From Methylotenera sp. (GTDB taxonomy: Bacteria > Pseudomonadota > Gammaproteobacteria > Burkholderiales > Methylophilaceae): 41,799 nucleotides of DNA. Below are positions 11,210-22,360 of the stretch, one piece after another (position 1 is the stretch's first letter; each line of letters opens with the position of its first letter). A program made the translations under genes and the position numbers. The stretch lies in the NCBI RefSeq assembly GCF_013141425.1, contig NZ_JABFRA010000056.1:1-41799 (forward strand), read 5' to 3'. The notes under the pieces were generated by a model. That model saw only the letters and a list, made by a program, of their open reading frames with translations. It did no database searches and had not been told where the DNA came from.

Positions 11210-11225
11210 TGGCACATAGTTTGCT
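11210..11225 (+). promoter_or_regulatory. Consensus sigma-54 (RpoN) promoter
   Basis: TGGCAC, five bases, TTGCT matches the -24/-12 consensus exactly, with GG and GC separated by 10 bases. Transcription should start near 11236, about 55 bases before the regulator's first ATG. Sigma-54 promoters need an enhancer-binding activator; none is encoded in the window. Confidence 0.75.
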
Positions 11226-12087: not shown

Positions 12088-12192
12088 GTATTAAAATTCA
12101 AATAGTATTATCAATAAAGTTAATTTAACTAACTTTTATCCCTCTGTTTCACACATCCAATTGTCTTGATATTTTTCATAATGTAGACATTG

Positions 12193-12208: not shown

Positions 12209-12335
12209 AGTGTTGATGTTTGTGGTGTCGACAAAATAACAAATTTGATTAATTCAATCATGGCGCTGTTTAAAATAAATTAGCGGCTAGGATTATTTTA
12301 ATATTTTGCGACGCAAAGCTTGAAAAAGGTGAGTG

Positions 12336-15300
12336 ATGATTGCAACGGAAAGCAGAAATAAGGCTAGTCAGGGCGCTATAGATAGAGCTAGCTTGTCTGA
12401 AATGAATTTACTAGCCACTAAGTTTAACGATGGACAACTAGCTGAAAGCGAGCAGTTGGCGATTAGGCTTACGCAAAGCTACCCGAGTGATGGATTCGGT
12501 TGGAAAGTATTGGGGGCAATCTTGCAACAGCAAGGTTTAATTACAGAAGCCGGTGAAGCATTAAAAAAAGCTGCAGCTTATTTGCCACAAGATAGTGAGG
12601 CGCAATATAACTTAGGTAACTTTTACTACGATCAACAGCAATTAGATGCGGCTGCAACGCATTACAAAAATGCAATTAAATTGGCACCAACTTTTGCTAA
12701 AGCACATTACAATTTAGGCAATGTACTAAAAAGCCAGAACGAATTAGATCAGGCTAAAATTAGCTATAACAATGCCTTAAAAATAGATTCCCAAAACGTG
12801 CATGCTACATGCAATTTAGCTCAGGTATTTTACGAGCAGGAACTCTTTTCAGATGCAATAATTTATTATAAGCAAGCGTTACAAGTGCAGGTAGATTTTG
12901 CTGCGGCTTACATCGGTTTAGGTGCATCCTTGCAGGCGATTGGTCAATTACCAGAAGCTGAGCAGAATTTTAGGCAGGCGATAATGATCAACCCAAATGA
13001 TGCTGATGCCCATCAGAATCTAGGTGGGTTACTAAAAGCATTGGGACGGTTAGAAGAAGCCGAATCTAGCTATAGAACTGCACTGACCATTTCACCAGAG
13101 AATGCAGATGCTTACACCAAGTTAGGGTCTATATTAAAATCCATGGGCAAGACTGCTGAAGCAAGTGATTGCTTCAGTAAAGCATTGAGTATCAACCCGA
13201 TGCTAGAAGAAGTTCAGAACGATTTAGGCTTAGCGCTGGCAGATCAAGGTCGTTTTTCAGAAGCAGAAGCGTGTTATCAAAAAGCCATTGAGATTGCACC
13301 CGTGTTCTGGAAAGCTTATAACAATCTTGGCTTGGCTTTGTATGGCATGGCAAGATTTAAAGAGGCTGAATCAGCTTTTGAAACAGCCATTGATTTAAAT
13401 CCTCATGAAGCTCTAATTCATAGCAATTTAAGTTTGCCATTAGTGGCGCAAGGGCAAATTAAAAAAGCCGAAGTCAGTCTAAAGTATGCGATAGAAATTT
13501 CCCCAGGATATGTCAATGCCTACATCAATCTAGGGACTAACTATTTAGCGCAAGGCTTAGCTCAAGAGGCCGAAGCTGCTTTTGTTGAGGCGCTAAAGAT
13601 AGATCAAGATTCGACTAAGGCAAGAAGTAATCTACTGTTTACACTTAATTACTCGGGTAGGCATAGTGCTGAGTTTCGCTTAGACCAAGCCAGCCAATAT
13701 GGACAAATCGCCGATAAAAATTCAAGTGTGGTGTTTACCGAATGGCAAGATAAATTGCAAGCAAAGCGGCTAAAAATCGGGCTGGTTTCTGGTGATTTGC
13801 GTCAGCATCCCGTTGCATATTTTTTAGAAAATTGGGCAAAACATATCGATTTTTCACGTTTTGAACTCATTGCTTATCCAACCGACCTTCGTGAAGATGA
13901 ATTTACCGACAGACTTAAACCTTACTTTTCAGGCTGGAAATCACTTGTAGGCTTAACTGACCAAGCAGCGGCCGAACTTATTCATGGTGATGGTGTGCAT
14001 ATATTGATGGATTTGTCTGGGCATACGGCAGAAAATAGACTGCCTGTTTTTGCAAGAAAGCCAGCTCCAATTCAGGTAAGCTGGTTGGGATATTTTGCGA
14101 CCACTGGAATGAGCACAATGGACTATTTTATTGCCGATGAAGTAGGCGTGCCTGAACAGAATAAAACGCAATTTGTTGAAAAAATCAAATACCTAGCGGA
14201 TACGCGACTTTGTTTTACCGCACCCCATAACTCAATAGAAGTTTCAAACTTACCAGCCTTGAAAAATGGCTATGTTACATTCGGCAGTTTTCAAACAATG
14301 GTTAAAGCTAGCAATGAGGTGCTTTCATTATGGGCTGAAGTAATTAAATCAACGCCAAATTCAAAATTGCGCTGGCAATGCAAGTCACTTGGTGATTCTG
14401 CGATTGTTGAAGATTTAAGGCAACGTTTTGCTAAGTACGGTATTGGTTCTGAACAATTGATCTTATTAGAATCTGTTTCGCGCGATGAATACTTAAAAGC
14501 ACATGCCGAAGTTGACCTGATACTCGATACGTTTCCATACCCAGGCGGCACAACCACCTGTGAAGGCCTGTGGATGGGGGTTCCGACTTTGACGCTAGCA
14601 GGTGATACATTAATTGCTAGGCAGGGTGCCAGTATGCTCACTGCGGCAGGGTTGGCAGATTGGGTTGCTGAAGATAAATCAGACTATGTCAATAAGGCAT
14701 TGTCATGCTGTGCGGATTTGACCAAACTGGCTAAATTGAGGGCTGGAATGCGAGCAAAGGTAATTGCTTCCCCCTTGTTTGATGGTCAGCGGTTTGCAAA
14801 AAATATGGAAAAAGCTATTCTGGAAATGTGGGATGAGTATTCAAAAAATTCCTTATATTTTCAAGCAGCTGTGAATATACCTGCTTCACACATGCAAGAT
14901 GCTAACGCATTTATGGCGCCCCAGAAACTTGCGATTGAAATTGTGAGTGCTACTCGATATTCAGAAGCTGATTTTTGGACTAAATCGGCTTTAGGGCTTT
15001 CCTTAACAAGGCATCTTAAGCAGGATGCTAGATTAAGTGCAAAAATTTCTTTTGAAAATACACGTGGATTATCTGAAGTGTTTAATGCAGCGATTGATCA
15101 AGCCGACACAGACGCGACACTGGTATTTATCCATGATGATGTGTGGATAGATGAAGCGAATTTTGCTGAGGTGGTCGCAGAAGGACTTGAGCATTTTGAC
15201 ATTATAGGCATTGCCGGGAATAAACGTAGATTACCAAATCAGCCAGGCTGGGTAATAGTAGACCTGAATTTCAAATGGGACGAACAGGAGAATTTAAGCG

Positions 15301-17336
15301 GCCAAGTTGCTCACAGTAAAAGTGCTTTTGGCGCGGCTAAGGTTTTTGGGGAAGCGCCAGCAACGTGTGAGTTATTAGACGGAGTTTTTCTTGCTGTAAA
15401 GAAAAGTAGCCTCGATAATAAAGGTGCGAGATTTGATGAGCAGTTTGATTTTCATTTTTATGATTTAGATTTTTGCCGTACAGCAAAACAAGCCGGTTTA
15501 ACTTTAGGGACTTGGCATATTCAATTAACGCATCAAAGCATTGGTCAATATGGCACTAAACAATGGCATGAAAAATATCACCTTTATTTAAATAAATGGG
15601 AAGAGTCAGGCATACAAAAAGTAAAGATTCCTGAAAATTCTGAGCCAAATCAAAATAATCAAGCCTTGCAGCAAGCAATTGAAGACGTGGTTGACATTGC
15701 CTTAGAACATCAAAGAGCTGGACGTTTGGAGCAAGCTGAACAGTTTTATCATGAGATTATTAGTATCAGTGCAAATCACGCGGCAGCCAACCACAATCTT
15801 GGTGTTATTAAGGCTGGCTTTAAAAACGTGCAAGAGGCTTTGCCATACTTAGAAATAGCCGTGCAAGAGAAACCAGACATAGAGCAGTATTGGGTTACTT
15901 ATATTGATGCCTTAATGCAGTCTGGTGCTATTGATACCGCAGCTGAAGCCTTGGAACTCGGGCAGAAATTTGGTTTGCGTCCGGGAGTTGCAAAAATGTT
16001 AGCCGCTGATTTTGTAAAGCAGTTCGATGCAAGGGAAAATAAGTTACAGTCTTTGAGAAACCAAGCTTTAGATGCACTGCAAGTAGAGTTAAGACCACGA
16101 GCAGTAATCCGCGCAAATGCTAATAAAAATGCAGGAAAACCAGTGTTTTATATCTGGTCACCTGATTACACCGAGTATTCTTCTGGTATTAAAGCTTTGC
16201 ATCTATTGTGCGATCGTTTAAATAACTTGGGTTACGAGGCCTACATTTCATCCGCTAAAGTGAATGAACTGATCAATACTCCGAAAATTACTAGCTACTT
16301 AATAAGTCAGCATAAACAACAAAATCGATTGCAAATAGCTATTTATCCTGAAACTCATGTTGGAAATCCACTTTTGATTCCTAATGTTGTGCGTTATTTA
16401 TTAAATAAGCCCAACTTTTTTCTGAAAACTTCTTGGTTTGGTAGTTATCACAAAGATGAAAAAATCCTTCATTATGACGATTCCTTTGCCATACCTTGGA
16501 TAAAATCTGATTGTGTAAGAGTGCAGACCATCGATCGCAATACATTTAAGTTGGCAGAGAATTCAAATATAGAGCGTTCTGGATTTTTGGTCTATTCACA
16601 TCGCGTGGAGCCTGACCTAACCTTAATTCCTGATTGGTGCAAACCATTTCAAGTAATTTCCATGGAAAATCCGAGGTCTGCAAAAGAGTTGTCTACCATG
16701 TATCAACAGTCTTCGGGTTTAATTGTTTTTGAAAGAACAGCGGCAATCGTTGAGGCTATTTTTTGTGGCTGCCCAGTAATTGCGAGTTCACAATATGGAT
16801 TTAAAGACTTCTCTATATATGATCAAGCTGTTGATATCGCCTGGGATTTTGATTTGTCTAGCTACGAACGTGCAAAACAATCAATTCCTTTATTCCCTAA
16901 AATTTACGATGCAAATGAGTATGTTGATACTCAAGCGCTTTTGGTTGCAGTAAAAGATATTGTTCATCATTTTCAATTTGACGAGTTAGATGCCCCTGAA
17001 TTTAATCACAGTGTGATATTTGAGCAAGCTAAGAAAAATCTACAGCTGGGAATGGTAACTGATTCGATTATCGCCTTTAGGCAATTGATTTTAGACAATC
17101 CCCAAAGTGTAGATGTCTATTTTTATTTAGCTCAGGAATTGATGGCGTTAAATTTAGCTAAGCCAGCGCAAGAAACCCTGCTAAATGGTGAATTATATCT
17201 AGAGAAATTACCTGAGCATGAATCCTTGAATGCAATTAGAGAGATCTATTACCAATTGCTTAGTGCTGCCTGTCGTGGGGTAGGTGATTTGGTCTTATCA
17301 AATCAATATATTGAAAAAAGTGGGCAGTATCAATAG
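12336..17336 (+). CDS. Giant TPR protein with three glycosyltransferase-like regions (SPINDLY/OGT type), probable flagellin glycosyltransferase
   Basis: A 1666-residue cytosolic protein. Residues about 30-440 are roughly 12 TPR units. Residues about 475-840 form a family 41 (OGT/SPINDLY-like) domain with H491 in LRQHPVAYF, LMDLSGHT, PIQVSWLGYFATTG, K657 in FGSFQTMVKAS, the position of the OGT catalytic lysine, and TFPYPGGTTTCEGLWMGVPTLT. Residues about 865-1090 resemble a family 2 (StrF-like) domain with FIHDDVWI. Residues about 1108-1230 are a second TPR module, nearly repeated in a downstream methyltransferase. Residues about 1265-1550 look like a GT-B fold (FERTAAIVEAIFCGCPVIA), and a helical tail follows. 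AAGGTGAG precedes the ATG. OGT-type enzymes put sugars on Ser/Thr, and flagellin lies downstream. Sugar and target are inferred. Confidence 0.85.
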   Translation: MIATESRNKASQGAIDRASLSEMNLLATKFNDGQLAESEQLAIRLTQSYPSDGFGWKVLGAILQQQGLITEAGEALKKAAAYLPQDSEAQYNLGNFYYDQQQLDAAATHYKNAIKLAPTFAKAHYNLGNVLKSQNELDQAKISYNNALKIDSQNVHATCNLAQVFYEQELFSDAIIYYKQALQVQVDFAAAYIGLGASLQAIGQLPEAEQNFRQAIMINPNDADAHQNLGGLLKALGRLEEAESSYRTALTISPENADAYTKLGSILKSMGKTAEASDCFSKALSINPMLEEVQNDLGLALADQGRFSEAEACYQKAIEIAPVFWKAYNNLGLALYGMARFKEAESAFETAIDLNPHEALIHSNLSLPLVAQGQIKKAEVSLKYAIEISPGYVNAYINLGTNYLAQGLAQEAEAAFVEALKIDQDSTKARSNLLFTLNYSGRHSAEFRLDQASQYGQIADKNSSVVFTEWQDKLQAKRLKIGLVSGDLRQHPVAYFLENWAKHIDFSRFELIAYPTDLREDEFTDRLKPYFSGWKSLVGLTDQAAAELIHGDGVHILMDLSGHTAENRLPVFARKPAPIQVSWLGYFATTGMSTMDYFIADEVGVPEQNKTQFVEKIKYLADTRLCFTAPHNSIEVSNLPALKNGYVTFGSFQTMVKASNEVLSLWAEVIKSTPNSKLRWQCKSLGDSAIVEDLRQRFAKYGIGSEQLILLESVSRDEYLKAHAEVDLILDTFPYPGGTTTCEGLWMGVPTLTLAGDTLIARQGASMLTAAGLADWVAEDKSDYVNKALSCCADLTKLAKLRAGMRAKVIASPLFDGQRFAKNMEKAILEMWDEYSKNSLYFQAAVNIPASHMQDANAFMAPQKLAIEIVSATRYSEADFWTKSALGLSLTRHLKQDARLSAKISFENTRGLSEVFNAAIDQADTDATLVFIHDDVWIDEANFAEVVAEGLEHFDIIGIAGNKRRLPNQPGWVIVDLNFKWDEQENLSGQVAHSKSAFGAAKVFGEAPATCELLDGVFLAVKKSSLDNKGARFDEQFDFHFYDLDFCRTAKQAGLTLGTWHIQLTHQSIGQYGTKQWHEKYHLYLNKWEESGIQKVKIPENSEPNQNNQALQQAIEDVVDIALEHQRAGRLEQAEQFYHEIISISANHAAANHNLGVIKAGFKNVQEALPYLEIAVQEKPDIEQYWVTYIDALMQSGAIDTAAEALELGQKFGLRPGVAKMLAADFVKQFDARENKLQSLRNQALDALQVELRPRAVIRANANKNAGKPVFYIWSPDYTEYSSGIKALHLLCDRLNNLGYEAYISSAKVNELINTPKITSYLISQHKQQNRLQIAIYPETHVGNPLLIPNVVRYLLNKPNFFLKTSWFGSYHKDEKILHYDDSFAIPWIKSDCVRVQTIDRNTFKLAENSNIERSGFLVYSHRVEPDLTLIPDWCKPFQVISMENPRSAKELSTMYQQSSGLIVFERTAAIVEAIFCGCPVIASSQYGFKDFSIYDQAVDIAWDFDLSSYERAKQSIPLFPKIYDANEYVDTQALLVAVKDIVHHFQFDELDAPEFNHSVIFEQAKKNLQLGMVTDSIIAFRQLILDNPQSVDVYFYLAQELMALNLAKPAQETLLNGELYLEKLPEHESLNAIREIYYQLLSAACRGVGDLVLSNQYIEKSGQYQ

Positions 17337-17379
17337 AACGCCCTGTCTAAGCACTTTGAAACACTTAACGATAAAATAT

Positions 17380-18495
17380 ATGGAAACTCAACATCCGCCA
17401 ATCTACGTAACACAGCCAAGTCTGCCGCCGCTTGAGGAGTTCACTCCTTATCTTAAGCAGATTTGGGAGAGCAAAACTTTAACGAATGGTGGTCCTTTTC
17501 ATCAGGAACTTGAGCGGGCGCTATGTAAACATCTAGGCGTTAAGCATTTAGCCTTATTTACCAATGCAACAATTGCTTTAGTCACTGCTTTGCAGGCGCT
17601 ACGTATATCGGGGGAGGTGATTACTACGCCCTATTCATTCGTCGCTACGGCTCATTCCTTGTTGTGGAATGGCATCAAGCCTGTATTTGTTGATGTTGAT
17701 CCTAATACCTTGAATCTTGATCCATCAAAGATTGAAGCGGCTATTACCTCTCATACCACAGCCATTATGCCGGTACACGTTTATGGACATCCCTGCGATG
17801 TTGAGGCCATTCAGAAAATTGCAGATCGATATAACCTGAAAGTTATCTATGATGCTGCTCATGCCTTTGGTGTGCAGCGAGAAGACGGGAGCGTACTGAA
17901 TCATGGAGACTTGTCTATTTTAAGTTTTCATGCAACTAAAGTATTTAATACCTTTGAAGGCGGGGCAATTATATGCCGCGATGCTAAAACAAAAAATCAC
18001 ATCGATCATTTAAAGAATTTTGGTTTTGTCGATGAGGTAACTGTCGTGGCTGCAGGAATTAACGGAAAAATGAGTGAAGTTAATGCAGCTTTTGGTATGT
18101 TGCAATTGAAGCATATTGAGAATTCGATTCTACTGCGTAAAGGAATTGATGCTAACTATCGCCGCCAATTAAATGAAGTGAAAGGTATTCGTTGTTTGAA
18201 TTTATCTGGGGAAACGATAGCTAATTATGGGTATTTTCCCATTCTTATTGAAGCGGAATATAGTCTGAGCCGTGATCAGTTATATGAAAAAATGCGTGAA
18301 AACAATATTTATGCAAGACGGTATTTTTATCCTTTAATTTCAGATTATCCAATGTATCGAGATCTGCCCTCTGCACAACGCAGCAGCCTTCCTGTTGCAG
18401 TTCGTGCATCAGAGCAAGTTTTATGTTTACCTATTTATCCTGCCCTGCAGCAGTTCGAGCAGCAACGCGTAATTGATCTTATAAGGAGCATCTAA
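17380..18495 (+). CDS. DegT/DnrJ/EryC1-family sugar aminotransferase, VioA-like
   Basis: A 371-residue PLP enzyme that aminates a nucleotide-linked keto-sugar. It has the fold-type I landmarks NGGPFHQELERAL, FTNATIALVTALQAL, ITTPYSFVATAHS, IYDAAHAFG and the PLP lysine K187 in FHATKVFN. The N-terminus (YVTQPSLPPLEEFTPYLKQIWES) reads like VioA, which makes dTDP-4-amino-4,6-dideoxyglucose (viosamine); that substrate is from remembered similarity, not proven. The frame extends upstream into the giant glycosyltransferase gene through a GTG, but the ATG giving METQHPP starts the conserved part. No strong ribosome binding site is seen. Lies 43 bases after the giant gene and two bases before the acyltransferase. 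Confidence 0.87.
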   Translation: METQHPPIYVTQPSLPPLEEFTPYLKQIWESKTLTNGGPFHQELERALCKHLGVKHLALFTNATIALVTALQALRISGEVITTPYSFVATAHSLLWNGIKPVFVDVDPNTLNLDPSKIEAAITSHTTAIMPVHVYGHPCDVEAIQKIADRYNLKVIYDAAHAFGVQREDGSVLNHGDLSILSFHATKVFNTFEGGAIICRDAKTKNHIDHLKNFGFVDEVTVVAAGINGKMSEVNAAFGMLQLKHIENSILLRKGIDANYRRQLNEVKGIRCLNLSGETIANYGYFPILIEAEYSLSRDQLYEKMRENNIYARRYFYPLISDYPMYRDLPSAQRSSLPVAVRASEQVLCLPIYPALQQFEQQRVIDLIRSI

Positions 18496-18496
18496 A

Positions 18497-19063
18497 ATGG
18501 CAATGCTACCGCGTGAAGCCGTTGAAAAGATTGGCTTCTTTTCAATAGGAAAAAATGTTCAGATTTCAGACCGAGCATCATTTTATGGTCTTGCTAGAAT
18601 TTCTGTTGGGGACAATGTTCGCATTGATGATTTCTGTGTAATTGCAGCGGGAGAAGGCGGGATATCAATCGGCAATAATGTTCATATTGCCGTTAGTGCT
18701 TCAATTATTGGCGCAGGAAAGATCACGCTCTCCGATTTTAGTGGAGTATCGTCTAGAGTATCAATCTATTCAAGTAGTGATGATTACACTGGAGCCACCA
18801 TGACAAACCCTACGGTGCCTAGTCAGTTCACAGGTGTTACACATGCCGATGTATTTCTTGGGCGTCATGTAATTGTTGGTAGTGGAAGTGTAATTTTGCC
18901 TGGTGTAACGATAGAAGAGGGGGCAGCTATCGGAGCGCTTACTTTAGTAAATAAGAACTGTGAGGCGTTTGGCATTTATATGGGTAATCCTGCTAGGCGA
19001 ATATCTGAACGCAAGCGTGATTTACTGGAACTAGAGAAGCAATATTTGAGTACTCAAAATTAA
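18497..19063 (+). CDS. Left-handed beta-helix acyltransferase
   Basis: A 188-residue enzyme of the hexapeptide-repeat (WbbJ/maltose O-acetyltransferase-like) class that should move an acyl group from CoA to a sugar. Repeats such as ISVGDNVRIDDFCVIAAG, ISIGNNVHIAVSASIIGAG and VFLGRHVIVGSGSVILPGVTIEEGAAIGA mark the helix, and the C-terminus GIYMGNPARRISERKR is typical. AAGGAG lies eight bases before the ATG and the gene starts right after the aminotransferase stop, so they are cotranslated. The likely job is acylation of the amino sugar made by the preceding enzyme; whether N- or O-acylation cannot be read. Confidence 0.87.
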   Translation: MAMLPREAVEKIGFFSIGKNVQISDRASFYGLARISVGDNVRIDDFCVIAAGEGGISIGNNVHIAVSASIIGAGKITLSDFSGVSSRVSIYSSSDDYTGATMTNPTVPSQFTGVTHADVFLGRHVIVGSGSVILPGVTIEEGAAIGALTLVNKNCEAFGIYMGNPARRISERKRDLLELEKQYLSTQN

Positions 19064-19084
19064 TATTAATTAGGAATATTTAGC

Positions 19085-20107
19085 ATGAAAACATTTTTAC
19101 ATGTAGGTTGTGGCCCTCAATATTTTGACGTGGTAACTAAAAAACCAAGCCGTCCAATGGGGTTTAATGTTGAAAATTGGCATGAGCTTCGCTTGGATAT
19201 CAATCCAGAAGTAAAGCCTGATGTAATTGGTACCATGACTGACATGTCGGCGTTGGCTTCAGGCAGTGTGGATGCGATTTTCTCATCCCATAATATTGAG
19301 CATTTGTACCCGCATGAAGTGCCAATTGCGCTAGCAGAGTTTAACCGAGTGTTACGTCCAGATGGATTTGTCGTTATTACCTGTCCAGATTTGCAATCGG
19401 TTTGTGCTTTAGTCGCGCAAGGAAAGCTTACTGAGCCTGCTTATATTTCTCCTGCAGGCCCTATTGCACCATTAGATATCCTGTACGGACATCGGCCACC
19501 AATGAGTCAGGGTAATCTTTATATGTCACATCGGTGTGGGTTTACCTTAAATGTGTTGCTTGCTACGTTAGAATCTGCCGGTTTTGCTAATACGATAGGA
19601 TTGTGCAGAGTCGATTGCTTTGATTTGTGGGCAGTGGCTAGTGTTTCAAGTCTTGAAGACTATCAACTATTAAGTATTGCAAATACACATTTTCCTCCTG
19701 AAGCTGGAGCCGCTAAACACAGGCCTCAGACTGAACGCGAGTTAGAACAAGCGGTAGACGAGGTTTTGGCAATTGCAGTACACCATCAAAATACGGGCAA
19801 TATTAGTCAAGCGGAACAACTCTACCGTGAGATTCTAGAGATTCAGCCACGTCATGCGCAAGCAAGTCATAATTTAGGGGTGATAGAAGCCAGTACTAAG
19901 GGCGCTGCTGCTGCACTTTCAAGGTTAGAGTGTGCAGTGGAATCAGAGCCCACAAATGAACAGTATTGGGTAAGCTACATTGATGCACTGATGCAGTCTG
20001 GCTTGACTGATGCTGTAACAAAAATGCTTGCGCTAGGTCAGAAGCAGGGATTATCAGCAGAAACTGCACAATTACTTGCTGCAGAATATGAGCAAACGCT
20101 TGTTTAG
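19085..20107 (+). CDS. SAM-dependent methyltransferase fused to a TPR module
   Basis: A 340-residue two-part protein. Residues 1-210 are a class I methyltransferase: FLHVGCGPQYFDV (SAM loop), RLDINPEVKPDVIG, AIFSSHNIEHLYPHEVPIAL and FNRVLRPDGFVVITCPDLQSV. Residues about 217-340 are a TPR module that closely resembles residues 1108-1230 of the giant glycosyltransferase, sharing HNLGVI and QYWV.YIDALMQSG. TAGGAA sits before the ATG. It could methylate the flagellin glycan, as VioM does in Pseudomonas syringae, with the TPR tail docking it to the glycosyltransferase or a common partner. That role is inference. Confidence 0.85.
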   Translation: MKTFLHVGCGPQYFDVVTKKPSRPMGFNVENWHELRLDINPEVKPDVIGTMTDMSALASGSVDAIFSSHNIEHLYPHEVPIALAEFNRVLRPDGFVVITCPDLQSVCALVAQGKLTEPAYISPAGPIAPLDILYGHRPPMSQGNLYMSHRCGFTLNVLLATLESAGFANTIGLCRVDCFDLWAVASVSSLEDYQLLSIANTHFPPEAGAAKHRPQTERELEQAVDEVLAIAVHHQNTGNISQAEQLYREILEIQPRHAQASHNLGVIEASTKGAAAALSRLECAVESEPTNEQYWVSYIDALMQSGLTDAVTKMLALGQKQGLSAETAQLLAAEYEQTLV

Positions 20108-20131
20108 CGAGTCAGTTTGCAATCACTACAT

Positions 20132-21193
20132 ATGCCGTTGAATTGCACCTTAAATGCCGTAATCATTGCTAAAAACGAATCAAGTTCTATTGGCAAGTGT
20201 ATTGAAAGCGTAATCAGTTCAGTAGATCGTGTTGTTGTTTATGATACGGGTTCTACTGATAATACAGTCAATATCGCAATTGCGGCAGGCGCAGCAGTGT
20301 TGCAAGGTAGTTGGCAAGATGATTTTTCACTTGCTCGGAATGCCGCTTTAGCTTATGCAGATGCAGACTGGAACCTCATTATTGATTCGGACGAGTGGCT
20401 AATAAGTGGTGGCGATAATTTACGGACTTTAATTTCAGGCGATGCTTTTCTAGGCGTTGTTTCAGTGCGTAGCGATTATGAGGTTGCCGATGCGCAATCT
20501 GTCGCAAATTCCTGGATTACGCGATTACTTCCCCGTGGTGTTTTATATCAAGGCCGCATTCATGAACAACCGCAATCTAATCTACCGCGTGTACGCGTTC
20601 CACTGGTATTTGGCCATGACGGCTATACCAAAATAAAACAGGAAAAAAAAGCAGGGCGTAATCGTAAACTACTGGAACTAGAGCTTGATAAATTGCCAGA
20701 AGATGCTTATTTACGTTATCAAATCGGCAAAGACTGTGAGGTGGCAGATGATTATTCTGCAGCCTGTTTACATTACAAAATGTCTTTAGGCCTTACTTCC
20801 AAAAACGCGACTTATTACCATGATTTGCTCGTTAGGTTGTTACATTGCCTAAGCAGATTGCAATTATTTGAGCAGGGCATTCAATTAGTCAATGAGGCGA
20901 TGCCCGATTTTTCTGATTCTCCCGACTTTTTCTTTGTGTATGGCAACCTTTTATTAGACTGTGCCGTAAGTAGGCCACAAGAGGCTTTTGAAAAATGGTT
21001 GCCTTTAGCTGAACTGGCTTGGCGAAGATGTATTGAAATAGGCGAGCGCCCAAATTTAGAAGGCAATGTTATTGGCCGTGGCAGTTACCTCGCCGCACAT
21101 AATCTGGCGGTCATTTTCCGTGGCCGTGGCAACCTAGAAAAAGCCAATCAATACGATATTCTTGCAAAAAAATTGCAAAACGCAGCCTTGTAA
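20132..21193 (+). CDS. Family 2 glycosyltransferase with TPR-like C-terminus
   Basis: A GT-A fold glycosyltransferase of about 353 residues. The N-terminus LNAVIIAKNESSSIGKCIESV is the nucleotide-sugar-binding strand, VYDTGSTDNTV is the second family motif, and IIDSDEWL is the DxD-type metal site. The region after GRIHEQPQ is helical and TPR-like, as in WaaE/KdtX-like or flagellin/SunS-type GT2 proteins. The frame opens with a TTG 15 bases upstream; I prefer the ATG (MPLNCTLNAVI), though neither has a clear ribosome binding site. Last gene of the glycosylation group, 24 bases after the methyltransferase stop and 369 before fliC. Confidence 0.85.
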   Translation: MPLNCTLNAVIIAKNESSSIGKCIESVISSVDRVVVYDTGSTDNTVNIAIAAGAAVLQGSWQDDFSLARNAALAYADADWNLIIDSDEWLISGGDNLRTLISGDAFLGVVSVRSDYEVADAQSVANSWITRLLPRGVLYQGRIHEQPQSNLPRVRVPLVFGHDGYTKIKQEKKAGRNRKLLELELDKLPEDAYLRYQIGKDCEVADDYSAACLHYKMSLGLTSKNATYYHDLLVRLLHCLSRLQLFEQGIQLVNEAMPDFSDSPDFFFVYGNLLLDCAVSRPQEAFEKWLPLAELAWRRCIEIGERPNLEGNVIGRGSYLAAHNLAVIFRGRGNLEKANQYDILAKKLQNAAL

Positions 21194-21424: not shown

Positions 21425-21523
21425 AGAAAATTTAAGCCTTACCCTAAATTTTCTGAAAAGCTTACCGATAACAGTAACAACAGCGGCGCAAATAGAAATT
21501 AAACGCATCGCTAACAGTAACAA
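21425..21523 (+). promoter_or_regulatory. Structured leader of fliC
   Basis: The leader contains a perfect 10-base inverted repeat, AGAAAATTTA (21425-21434) and TAAATTTTCT (21445-21454), with a 10-base loop. Downstream is a direct repeat TAACAGTAACAA at 21469-21480 and 21512-21523. The start codon follows TTAGGAGA. Such a leader could control mRNA stability or translation (for example by CsrA, whose core site GGA occurs at the ribosome binding site), but no regulator is shown by the sequence. Confidence 0.5.
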
Positions 21524-21562: not shown

Positions 21563-22360
21563 ATGGCTTCAGTAATTAATACCAACATTGCTTCATTAAA
21601 CACACAACGTAACTTATCTGCTTCACAGCACTCACTTTCTACTTCATTGCAACGCTTATCTTCAGGTTTGCGTATCAACAGTGCTAAAGATGATGCGGCG
21701 GGCTTAGCGATTGCGACACGTATGGATTCACAAGTACGTGGTCAACAAGTTGCTATCCGTAACGCAAACGATGCAATCTCATTTGCACAAGTGGCTGAAG
21801 GTGGCTTGTCTAAACAAACCGATGCATTACAACGTATGCGTGAACTTGCAGTTCAGTCTTTAAACGGCACTAACACAACGACTGACCAAGCTAACTTAGA
21901 TGCAGAGTTTACACAATTGACTGCAGAGGTAACACGCTTAGCAACTGCAACAAAATTTAATGGTACCGCAGTGTTTGGCGCCTCACAAACTTTCCAAGTT
22001 GGTGCAGATGCTGGTGACACAATTACTACGGCTTCTGTAGCTGCGGCGACTATTGCTGGTACTGTTTCTACTACAGCGGGTGCCTCTGCTGCCGTTACTG
22101 CGATTGATGCCGCTCTAACTGCTGCCAATACTAACCGTGCGACATTAGGTGCTATCCAAAACCGTTTTGAGTCAGTGGTAAGCAACTTACAAGTTTCTGT
22201 AGAAAACCAATCAGCAGCTAAATCTCGCATTGTAGATGCAGACTTTGCGGCAGAAACAGCTAACTTGACTCGCGGCCAAATCTTGCAACAAGCAGGTACA
22301 GCAATGTTAGCGCAAGCGAACTCCTTGCCTAATGGTGTGCTAGCACTGTTAAGAGGTTAA
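21563..22360 (+). CDS. fliC: Flagellin
   Basis: The filament subunit, exported by the flagellar type III system. At 265 residues it is short: conserved D0/D1 N-terminus (MASVINTNIASLNTQRNLS, LQRLSSGLRINSAKDDAAGL) and C-terminus (SRIVDADFAAETANLTRGQILQQ, ending ALLRG) flank a small centre with no D2/D3 domains. Residues about 150-180 are rich in Thr, Ser and Ala (DTITTASVAAATIAGTVSTT) and are the best candidate sites for O-glycosylation by the genes just upstream. TTAGGAGA precedes the ATG. It has its own sigma-28 promoter and is followed by a hairpin, so it should be made in large amounts separately from flaG. Confidence 0.97.
   Translation: MASVINTNIASLNTQRNLSASQHSLSTSLQRLSSGLRINSAKDDAAGLAIATRMDSQVRGQQVAIRNANDAISFAQVAEGGLSKQTDALQRMRELAVQSLNGTNTTTDQANLDAEFTQLTAEVTRLATATKFNGTAVFGASQTFQVGADAGDTITTASVAAATIAGTVSTTAGASAAVTAIDAALTAANTNRATLGAIQNRFESVVSNLQVSVENQSAAKSRIVDADFAAETANLTRGQILQQAGTAMLAQANSLPNGVLALLRG

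Follow-up and report, generated by a model that had tools for sequence, protein, structure and literature searches.

How many steps in the assembly of a flagellin glycan can be entrusted to a single polypeptide, and which of them are fixed, is the question raised by a locus of Methylotenera sp. (contig NZ_JABFRA010000056.1; the whole stretch of 41,799 nucleotides analysed is referred to as the window). An open reading frame (ORF), confirmed in this window at 12333-17336, encodes a protein of 1666 residues and lies upstream of a set of sugar genes and of the flagellin gene fliC. A first-pass annotation, made from the sequence alone, had described it as an enzyme with three glycosyltransferase (GT)-like regions that may start, extend and finish a flagellin glycan. 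The protein has a conserved front end, composed of an N-terminal array of tetratricopeptide repeats (TPR1), a GT41 domain, a GT2 region and a second TPR module (TPR2), in which two transferase folds are present; the tail behind it varies among orthologues, which diverge at definable points, and the enzyme co-occurs with fliC within the genus. The protein probably acts in flagellin O-glycosylation in the cytoplasm of Methylotenera, combining a fixed front end with a tail that can be exchanged.

Architecture of the large enzyme

The likely start codon is the ATG at 12336, preceded by AAAAAGG. The TPR array, the GT41 domain with its His and Lys, the GT2 region and the second TPR module described at first were all recovered by ORF, Pfam and profile analyses (Table 1). 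Pfam TPR_1 matches nine stretches across the whole protein (E 2.9e-70), and the TPR units of TPR1 extend to about residue 440, a length compatible with about 12 units. A full-length relative exists in genome G003 (62% identity over residues 16-1660) and the core was found in 16 further orthologues, which rules out a chance architecture. This conserved core is TPR1-GT41-GT2-TPR2; its identity to the window's protein is 51-66% in BLAST alignments across orthologues, and the GT41-GT2 fusion is retained in all 18 of them. PADLOC matched the TPR part alone of the window protein, and a tblastn search with GT2+TPR2 against a phage collection returned no match.

Evidence for transferase folds in the three regions

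On sequence evidence, the assignment of the first region to a GT41 transferase behind TPR repeats is solid. The domain reaches 183.7 bits with Pfam Glyco_transf_41 (cut-off 25), its closest solved relative is SPINDLY (7y4i, E 3.5e-80), and H491 and K657, which we take to be the catalytic His and Lys of GT41, align opposite a His and a Lys of SPINDLY and are both kept in 18/18 orthologues. The prediction of a GT2 transferase with a GT-A fold for the second region is also solid, here by means of a structure model (mean pLDDT, the predicted local distance difference test, 85.7; predicted template modelling score 0.86) and a match to Pfam Glyco_tranf_2_5 at residues 907-1061 (40.6 bits, cut-off 27). 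The top match of the model in the PDB is 2qgi, a UDP complex of a Rhodobacter blasticus protein (template modelling score, TM, 0.71), followed by GalNAc-transferases and other glycosyltransferases. As a point against the proposed reading of the enzyme, the HDDV motif, kept as DDV in 16/18 orthologues, reads DNV in G003 and G013.

The third region, at about residues 1268-1534, is probably a GT-B transferase, as judged from a weak model. In its sequence a hydrophobic strand precedes an E-x6-E pattern and G-C-P-V, which we take to be GT-B/GT4-like, and a profile built from six relatives matches the WbaZ-1 mannosyltransferase (2f9f, E 0.015). Several results weigh against this assignment. No Pfam match exceeds its cut-off (Glycos_transf_1, E 0.14), so that the label GT-B-like is a plausible one; the structure model is weak (pLDDT 66.0) and, in Foldseek, TPR proteins make up most of its matches, with a weak match to the UDP-bound glucosyltransferase 8xsg (E 6.2e-4, TM 0.33); the 2f9f match falls to E 0.17 with a 12-relative profile; and profile-profile comparison (hhalign) of the module, in the type A form found in the window, with GT4-like, GT41 and GT2 profiles gave no support, the profiles being thin (effective number of sequences, Neff, 2.6). 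Pfam searches on 12 type A members returned two families, each in one member (DUF6798, E 0.0053, and another at E 0.077), and matches to glycosyltransferases and TPR proteins in a viral fold library were weak, none at E <= 0.001. Of the three transferase-like regions proposed at first, GT41 thus stands by sequence and GT2 by Pfam and model, and the third is likely; the structure prediction suggested as a check bore out the GT-A fold and left the third region with a weak model.

Relatives of the third region are present in 5/274 genomes of the class and 12/398 genomes of the phylum (own genome included in both counts). In three of the four relatives in the class, the region stands at the N-terminal end of an ORF (1223-1500 aa) that also encodes GT2 domains. 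Such a multi-GT ORF directly precedes a flagellin gene in L097 and L098 (L-numbers denote loci of relatives); in L096 the distance to two flagellin genes, on the opposite strand, is about 4 kb, and in L099 the relative is a protein of 348 aa with no flagellin nearby.

The variable tail behind TPR2

Five tail states are found behind TPR2 among the 18 orthologues. Type A is carried by the window's own genome (G000) and G003. Type B, present in eight genomes, has no BLAST similarity to type A and gave no Pfam match (two members), no NCBIfam match (two members) and no PDB match as a profile; its designation as GT-B-like, a by-eye impression with no family or PDB match behind it, was discarded. The tail of G046 is GT2-like (Glycos_transf_2 22.8 bits, just below the cut-off of 23.3), and a relative of it in L107 reaches 31.6 bits. 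Methyltransferase-bearing tails accompanied by a second copy of TPR2 occur in G022 and G055, and no tail is present in G013, G019, G059, G060 and G061. Because 5/18 orthologues are devoid of a third module and 11/18 carry a different one, the idea that the polypeptide starts, extends and finishes the glycan fails as a fixed feature of the enzyme.

On a tree of the GT41+GT2 part, the tail states of the 18 Methylotenera rows need six changes, the least possible being four. With 24 rows and seven labels, 11 changes are needed (least 6), against a mean of 13.9 for shuffled labels, and shuffling gave counts as low as 11 in 6/200 cases; tail states are clustered on the tree and descent therefore explains much of them, a point against an exchangeable tail. 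Starred branches place G046, with its GT2-like tail, within the clade of type B; G013, which has no tail, and the type A genome G003 are sisters (support 100/100). The tree therefore points to inheritance as well as to exchange or loss.

There is a partial match between tail type and the next gene, which has a counterpart of 50% identity or more in the partner genome in 20/40 same-tail pairs versus 7/113 different-tail pairs. Six of these seven pairs involve G013, in which the next gene is the conserved methyltransferase. Counting against this association, G000 and G003 have the type A tail in common and differ in the sugar genes that follow. The G+C content of the window's tail is 36.8%, compared with 41.0-43.3% in TPR1, GT41 and TPR2 and 39.6% in GT2.

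Points of divergence between orthologues

Junctions were mapped in selected genome pairs, in which the variable block has its edge at the end of TPR2 or just after it. In one pair of single-contig genomes, G046 and G042, this edge is inside the gene: their DNA is 82% identical through residue 1217, at the end of TPR2, blastn homology is then absent for 8.1 kb and it returns at 84% two genes before the methyltransferase. Windowed identity in this pair is 73% at residues 1201-1220 and 35% at residues 1221-1240. G022 and G055 correspond as far as the end of the first TPR2, diverge in the module after it and agree once more in the second copy of TPR2. G060 and G061 differ throughout the gene, with 56% protein identity before TPR2, and their DNA is 93-100% identical from about 110 nt past the gene end; since both are metagenome-assembled genomes with similar bin names, this junction may be a chimera. 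A common block beginning at the start of TPR2, as blastn placed it in this pair, was rejected, as the windowed profile has its step just past the gene end. In G013 the gene breaks off inside TPR2, with the methyltransferase directly after.

Within G022 (L040, 13421-19255), the two TPR2 copies are 85.6% identical and closer to each other than to those of G055, which suggests that the module was recently duplicated or underwent gene conversion.

Occurrence of TPR2 on other proteins

TPR2-type modules, defined by a profile score above 60 bits, form the end of 11 methyltransferase ORFs near fliC in Methylotenera loci; five ORFs with the module code for cassette proteins of 537-963 aa, and another five for a second GT41 protein that precedes fliC. 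Pfam analysis of two cassette ORFs identified GT61 in L042 (878 aa, with TPR) and in L043 (1021 aa, without TPR). TPR2 also precedes tails in L107, L108, L117, L124, L127 and L137, among others. We tentatively suggest, with less confidence than doubt, that TPR2 may be a standard adaptor placing island enzymes on one glycan, and its C-terminal edge the joint at which the last transferase and the matching sugar genes would be swapped as one block.

Distribution of the enzyme and its tie to fliC

Matches to GT2+TPR2 at E <= 1e-8 are present in 20/52 Methylotenera genomes, 18 of which hold a GT41-GT2 ORF; the other two are a GT2 fragment (G064) and a TPR2-like piece (G021). Flagellin_N matches occur in 27/52 genomes and FliC, defined as a Flagellin_N match over 120 bits, in 25/52; G020 and G058, with weak Flagellin_N matches alone, presumably encode FlgL-like proteins. 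The enzyme is found in 18/25 genomes with fliC and in 0/27 of the others (Fisher p 1.1e-8, a value that ignores relatedness and genome completeness). Enzyme and fliC share a contig in 14/18 genomes, in all 14 with the enzyme upstream and on the same strand, and lie within 16 kb of each other in 13/18. In G019, G056, G062 and G067 they are on different contigs. Cultured relatives with the enzyme include Methylotenera oryzisoli La3113 and Methylotenera mobilis 13. The conservation of the gene set near fliC, proposed as a check, applies to the core, and the tail and the next genes vary. From the linkage to fliC and the co-occurrence with it in the genus we infer the role in flagellin glycosylation that had been proposed. 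Three observations count against it: in G019 both ends of the enzyme's contig are more than 80 kb away and fliC is elsewhere, in G059 fliC is 30 kb away, and 7/25 fliC genomes have no full enzyme, which is therefore dispensable for flagella in general.

Beyond Methylotenera, 27/300 genomes of the order (own genome included) match GT2+TPR2 at E <= 1e-20, many of these matches being to TPR2 alone. Of 128 named relatives, 80 were kept; among these 80 named loci, 34 carry GT41 and GT2 in one ORF of 966-2521 aa (some cut by contig ends), 31 have GT2 and lack GT41, and the ORFs picked in the remaining 15 showed no GT2. Given these 34 loci and the published large or GT41-type transferases, the description of the polypeptide as unusual needs amending. 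Large arrangements include L116 (558-7088) and L128 (4373-11482), whose ORFs of 2176 and 2369 aa hold three tandem GT41 plus GT2 right behind a flagellin gene, and the ORFs of 2491-2521 aa from Methylophilus (L119, L121, L122, L123, L125, L148 and L173), with two GT41, GT2 and TPR2-like copies. In the latter proteins the second GT41 follows a weaker TPR2 match, and no fliC was found in the fetched stretches.

Neighbouring genes and the predicted sugar

The aminotransferase, acyltransferase, methyltransferase and GT2 genes, followed by fliC, are present as first annotated, with the addition of a TPR tail on the methyltransferase that had gone unmentioned (Table 1). Transferase and sugar genes thus adjoin fliC, which begins 369 bp past the stop of the GT2 gene and is followed by further flagellar genes.

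Table 1. Domains of the large enzyme (12336-17333) and features downstream of it in the window.
Feature	Coordinates	Strand	Basis
TPR1, N-terminal TPR array, residues 1-444	12336-13667	+	Pfam TPR_1
GT41 domain, residues 445-860, H491 and K657	13668-14915	+	Pfam; SPINDLY structure match
GT2 region, predicted GT-A fold, residues 868-1095, HDDV motif	14937-15620	+	PF13712; structure model
TPR2 module, residues 1107-1232	15654-16031	+	Own profile, 197 bits
Variable third module, type A, probable GT-B	16032-16937	+	Profile match at residues 1268-1534, weak
C-terminal helical tail, TPR-like	16938-17333	+	Helices in model; TPR structure matches
DegT-type sugar aminotransferase, nearest DesI	17380-18495	+	PF01041, E 1.6e-103
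Hexapeptide acyltransferase	18497-19063	+	Hexapep, E 5.1e-11
Methyltransferase with C-terminal TPR2-type module (about 19730-20095)	19085-20107	+	Methyltransf_11, E 4e-9
GT2 glycosyltransferase, distantly SunS-like	20117-21193	+	Glycos_transf_2, E 1.5e-14
Sigma-28-like site ahead of fliC, with a single mismatch to the consensus	21445-21471	+	Pattern scan
fliC flagellin, probable substrate	21563-22360	+	Flagellin_N, E 2.7e-42; Flagellin_C, E 1.5e-24

The top PDB match of the aminotransferase is 2po3 (E 2.5e-64), which we take to be DesI; the aminotransferase scores 307.3 bits with the DesI model TIGR04427, under the cut-off of 650. The acyltransferase is closest to 3vbi (E 5.4e-47), presumably the acyltransferase AntD of the anthrose pathway. 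RmlA and RmlB score above their cut-offs on other contigs of the genome and, together with these two enzymes, are consistent with a route through dTDP-4-amino-4,6-dideoxyglucose. The last sugar suggested by the cassette is of viosamine type, a 4-acylamido-4,6-dideoxyglucose, and the methyltransferase, common to many islands, may act on another one. The TPR2-type module of the methyltransferase is 50% identical to TPR2 of the large enzyme; at this identity, gene conversion between the two is unsupported in the window.

The GT2 protein encoded before fliC scores 72.8 bits with the peptide S-glycosyltransferase SunS (TIGR04195), under the cut-off of 350. It takes the place occupied in several Methylotenera loci by a second GT41 protein of 692-742 aa just before fliC (L038 13858-15936, L040 4087-6315, L044 6253-8337 and L045 6801-8879). 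In the window's own genome, GT41-like and TPR pieces lie at contig ends (C89:4-360 and C72:96-584), and are perhaps a second OGT split by the assembly. Upstream of the large gene, a site of sigma-54 type that matches the consensus TGGCAC-N5-TTGC exactly is found at 11210-11225, about 65 bp before a LuxR-type response regulator (11290); judged by eye, another such site, its spacer differing by one nucleotide, lies near 12190, before the large gene itself.

Proposed mechanism and alternative readings

Taken as an enzyme of flagellin O-glycosylation, the large protein could operate as follows, where flagellin as the acceptor, the order of transfer, the sugars and the role of TPR2 are what we infer. 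TPR1 would hold FliC ahead of its export, so that GT41 could place a first sugar on Ser/Thr residues, probably in a short central segment, and GT2, through its GT-A fold, would attach a second one. TPR2 would then act as an adaptor bringing a third, strain-specific enzyme to the growing glycan. In the window, this third enzyme would probably be a GT-B transferase using a dTDP-4-acylamido-4,6-dideoxyglucose (viosamine-type) sugar that the genes next to the large enzyme supply.

This reading has to be weighed against others that distribute the activities differently. GT41 might modify flagellin, with GT2 and the tail being separate activities on the same chain (directed to other sites or acceptors, or to sugar modification), as could be expected from the methyltransferase domains in 2/18 tails, the orthologues without a tail and the loci with GT2 and no GT41, in which GT2 is often a protein of about 224-310 aa; however, the fusion of GT41 with GT2 is never broken among the orthologues and the partial agreement between tail type and adjacent gene suits a terminal step, which makes such a division unlikely. 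It is decidedly improbable that the acceptor is another surface molecule or protein and the position in the flagellar cluster regulatory or incidental. The two-component pair upstream of the large gene, the fliC genomes lacking the enzyme and its placement away from fliC in G019 and G059 would agree with it, but the enzyme is absent from every genome without a FliC-type match, is linked to fliC in most of its carriers, and has relatives among multi-GT ORFs that immediately precede flagellin genes in L097 and L098.

A more restricted objection concerns the third region, which may be a non-transferase (e.g. sugar-modifying or purely structural), leaving a two-transferase enzyme. The lack of a family match above cut-off, the weak model and the negative profile-profile comparison would be explained in this way; we nevertheless hold it rather doubtful, as the GT-B/GT4-like pattern, the WbaZ-1 and 8xsg matches and the position of its relatives at the N-termini of ORFs with further GT2 domains argue for a transferase. 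If the adaptor reading of TPR2 is right, part of the diversity of flagellin glycans would come from swapping an enzyme domain en bloc with its sugar genes, at a joint that is fixed within the gene, and not from turnover of separate genes alone. The flagellar surface could thereby be rewritten, e.g. under phage or grazer pressure, with the initiating enzyme kept. The domain type would be readable as a pointer to the terminal sugar, and the joint would represent a natural rule for building chimeric multi-transferase enzymes.

Comparison with known flagellin glycosylation systems

Large or GT41-type flagellin transferases are already known and include FlmG, VioT/OrfN and the enterobacterial GT41 enzymes. 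In the literature searched, which largely excludes subscription journals, no GT41-GT2 fusion is reported in Methylophilaceae, nor one whose tail and sugar genes change jointly at a TPR boundary. FlmG from Caulobacter crescentus, a soluble protein of 596 residues, glycosylates flagellin in the cytoplasm with pseudaminic acid as the donor (PMC7591256). Like the Methylotenera enzyme, it joins an N-terminal TPR half, which binds flagellin, to a C-terminal transferase half, of GT-B type; unlike it, FlmG has one transferase, and the available part of its description includes no GT2, TPR2 or exchangeable tail (PMC7591256).

In enterobacterial islands, as in the window, a SPINDLY-type GT41 enzyme adjoins fliC and the islands are variable; most of these GT41 enzymes carry an added methyltransferase domain (PMC4875605). 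By description, each of these islands holds transferases of a single GT family (PMC4875605), whereas the Methylotenera enzyme joins GT41 to GT2 and has an additional, variable module. VioT (1,173 aa) and Fgt1 from Pseudomonas syringae and OrfN from P. aeruginosa PAK are also large flagellin transferases; unlike for the Methylotenera enzyme, GT41 is not mentioned in the accessible part of their descriptions (PMC3927599). The viosamine island of P. syringae, in which VioA, VioB, VioM and VioT make and transfer modified viosamine, resembles the window, again by description, in its aminotransferase, acyltransferase and methyltransferase genes (PMC3927599). Finally, Fgi-1 from Aeromonas offers a parallel for the second step, being a GT2/GT-A enzyme with a proposed role in extending the flagellin glycan by a further sugar, although it is a separate protein of 313-327 residues that adds onto a pseudaminic acid derivative (PMC7874193).

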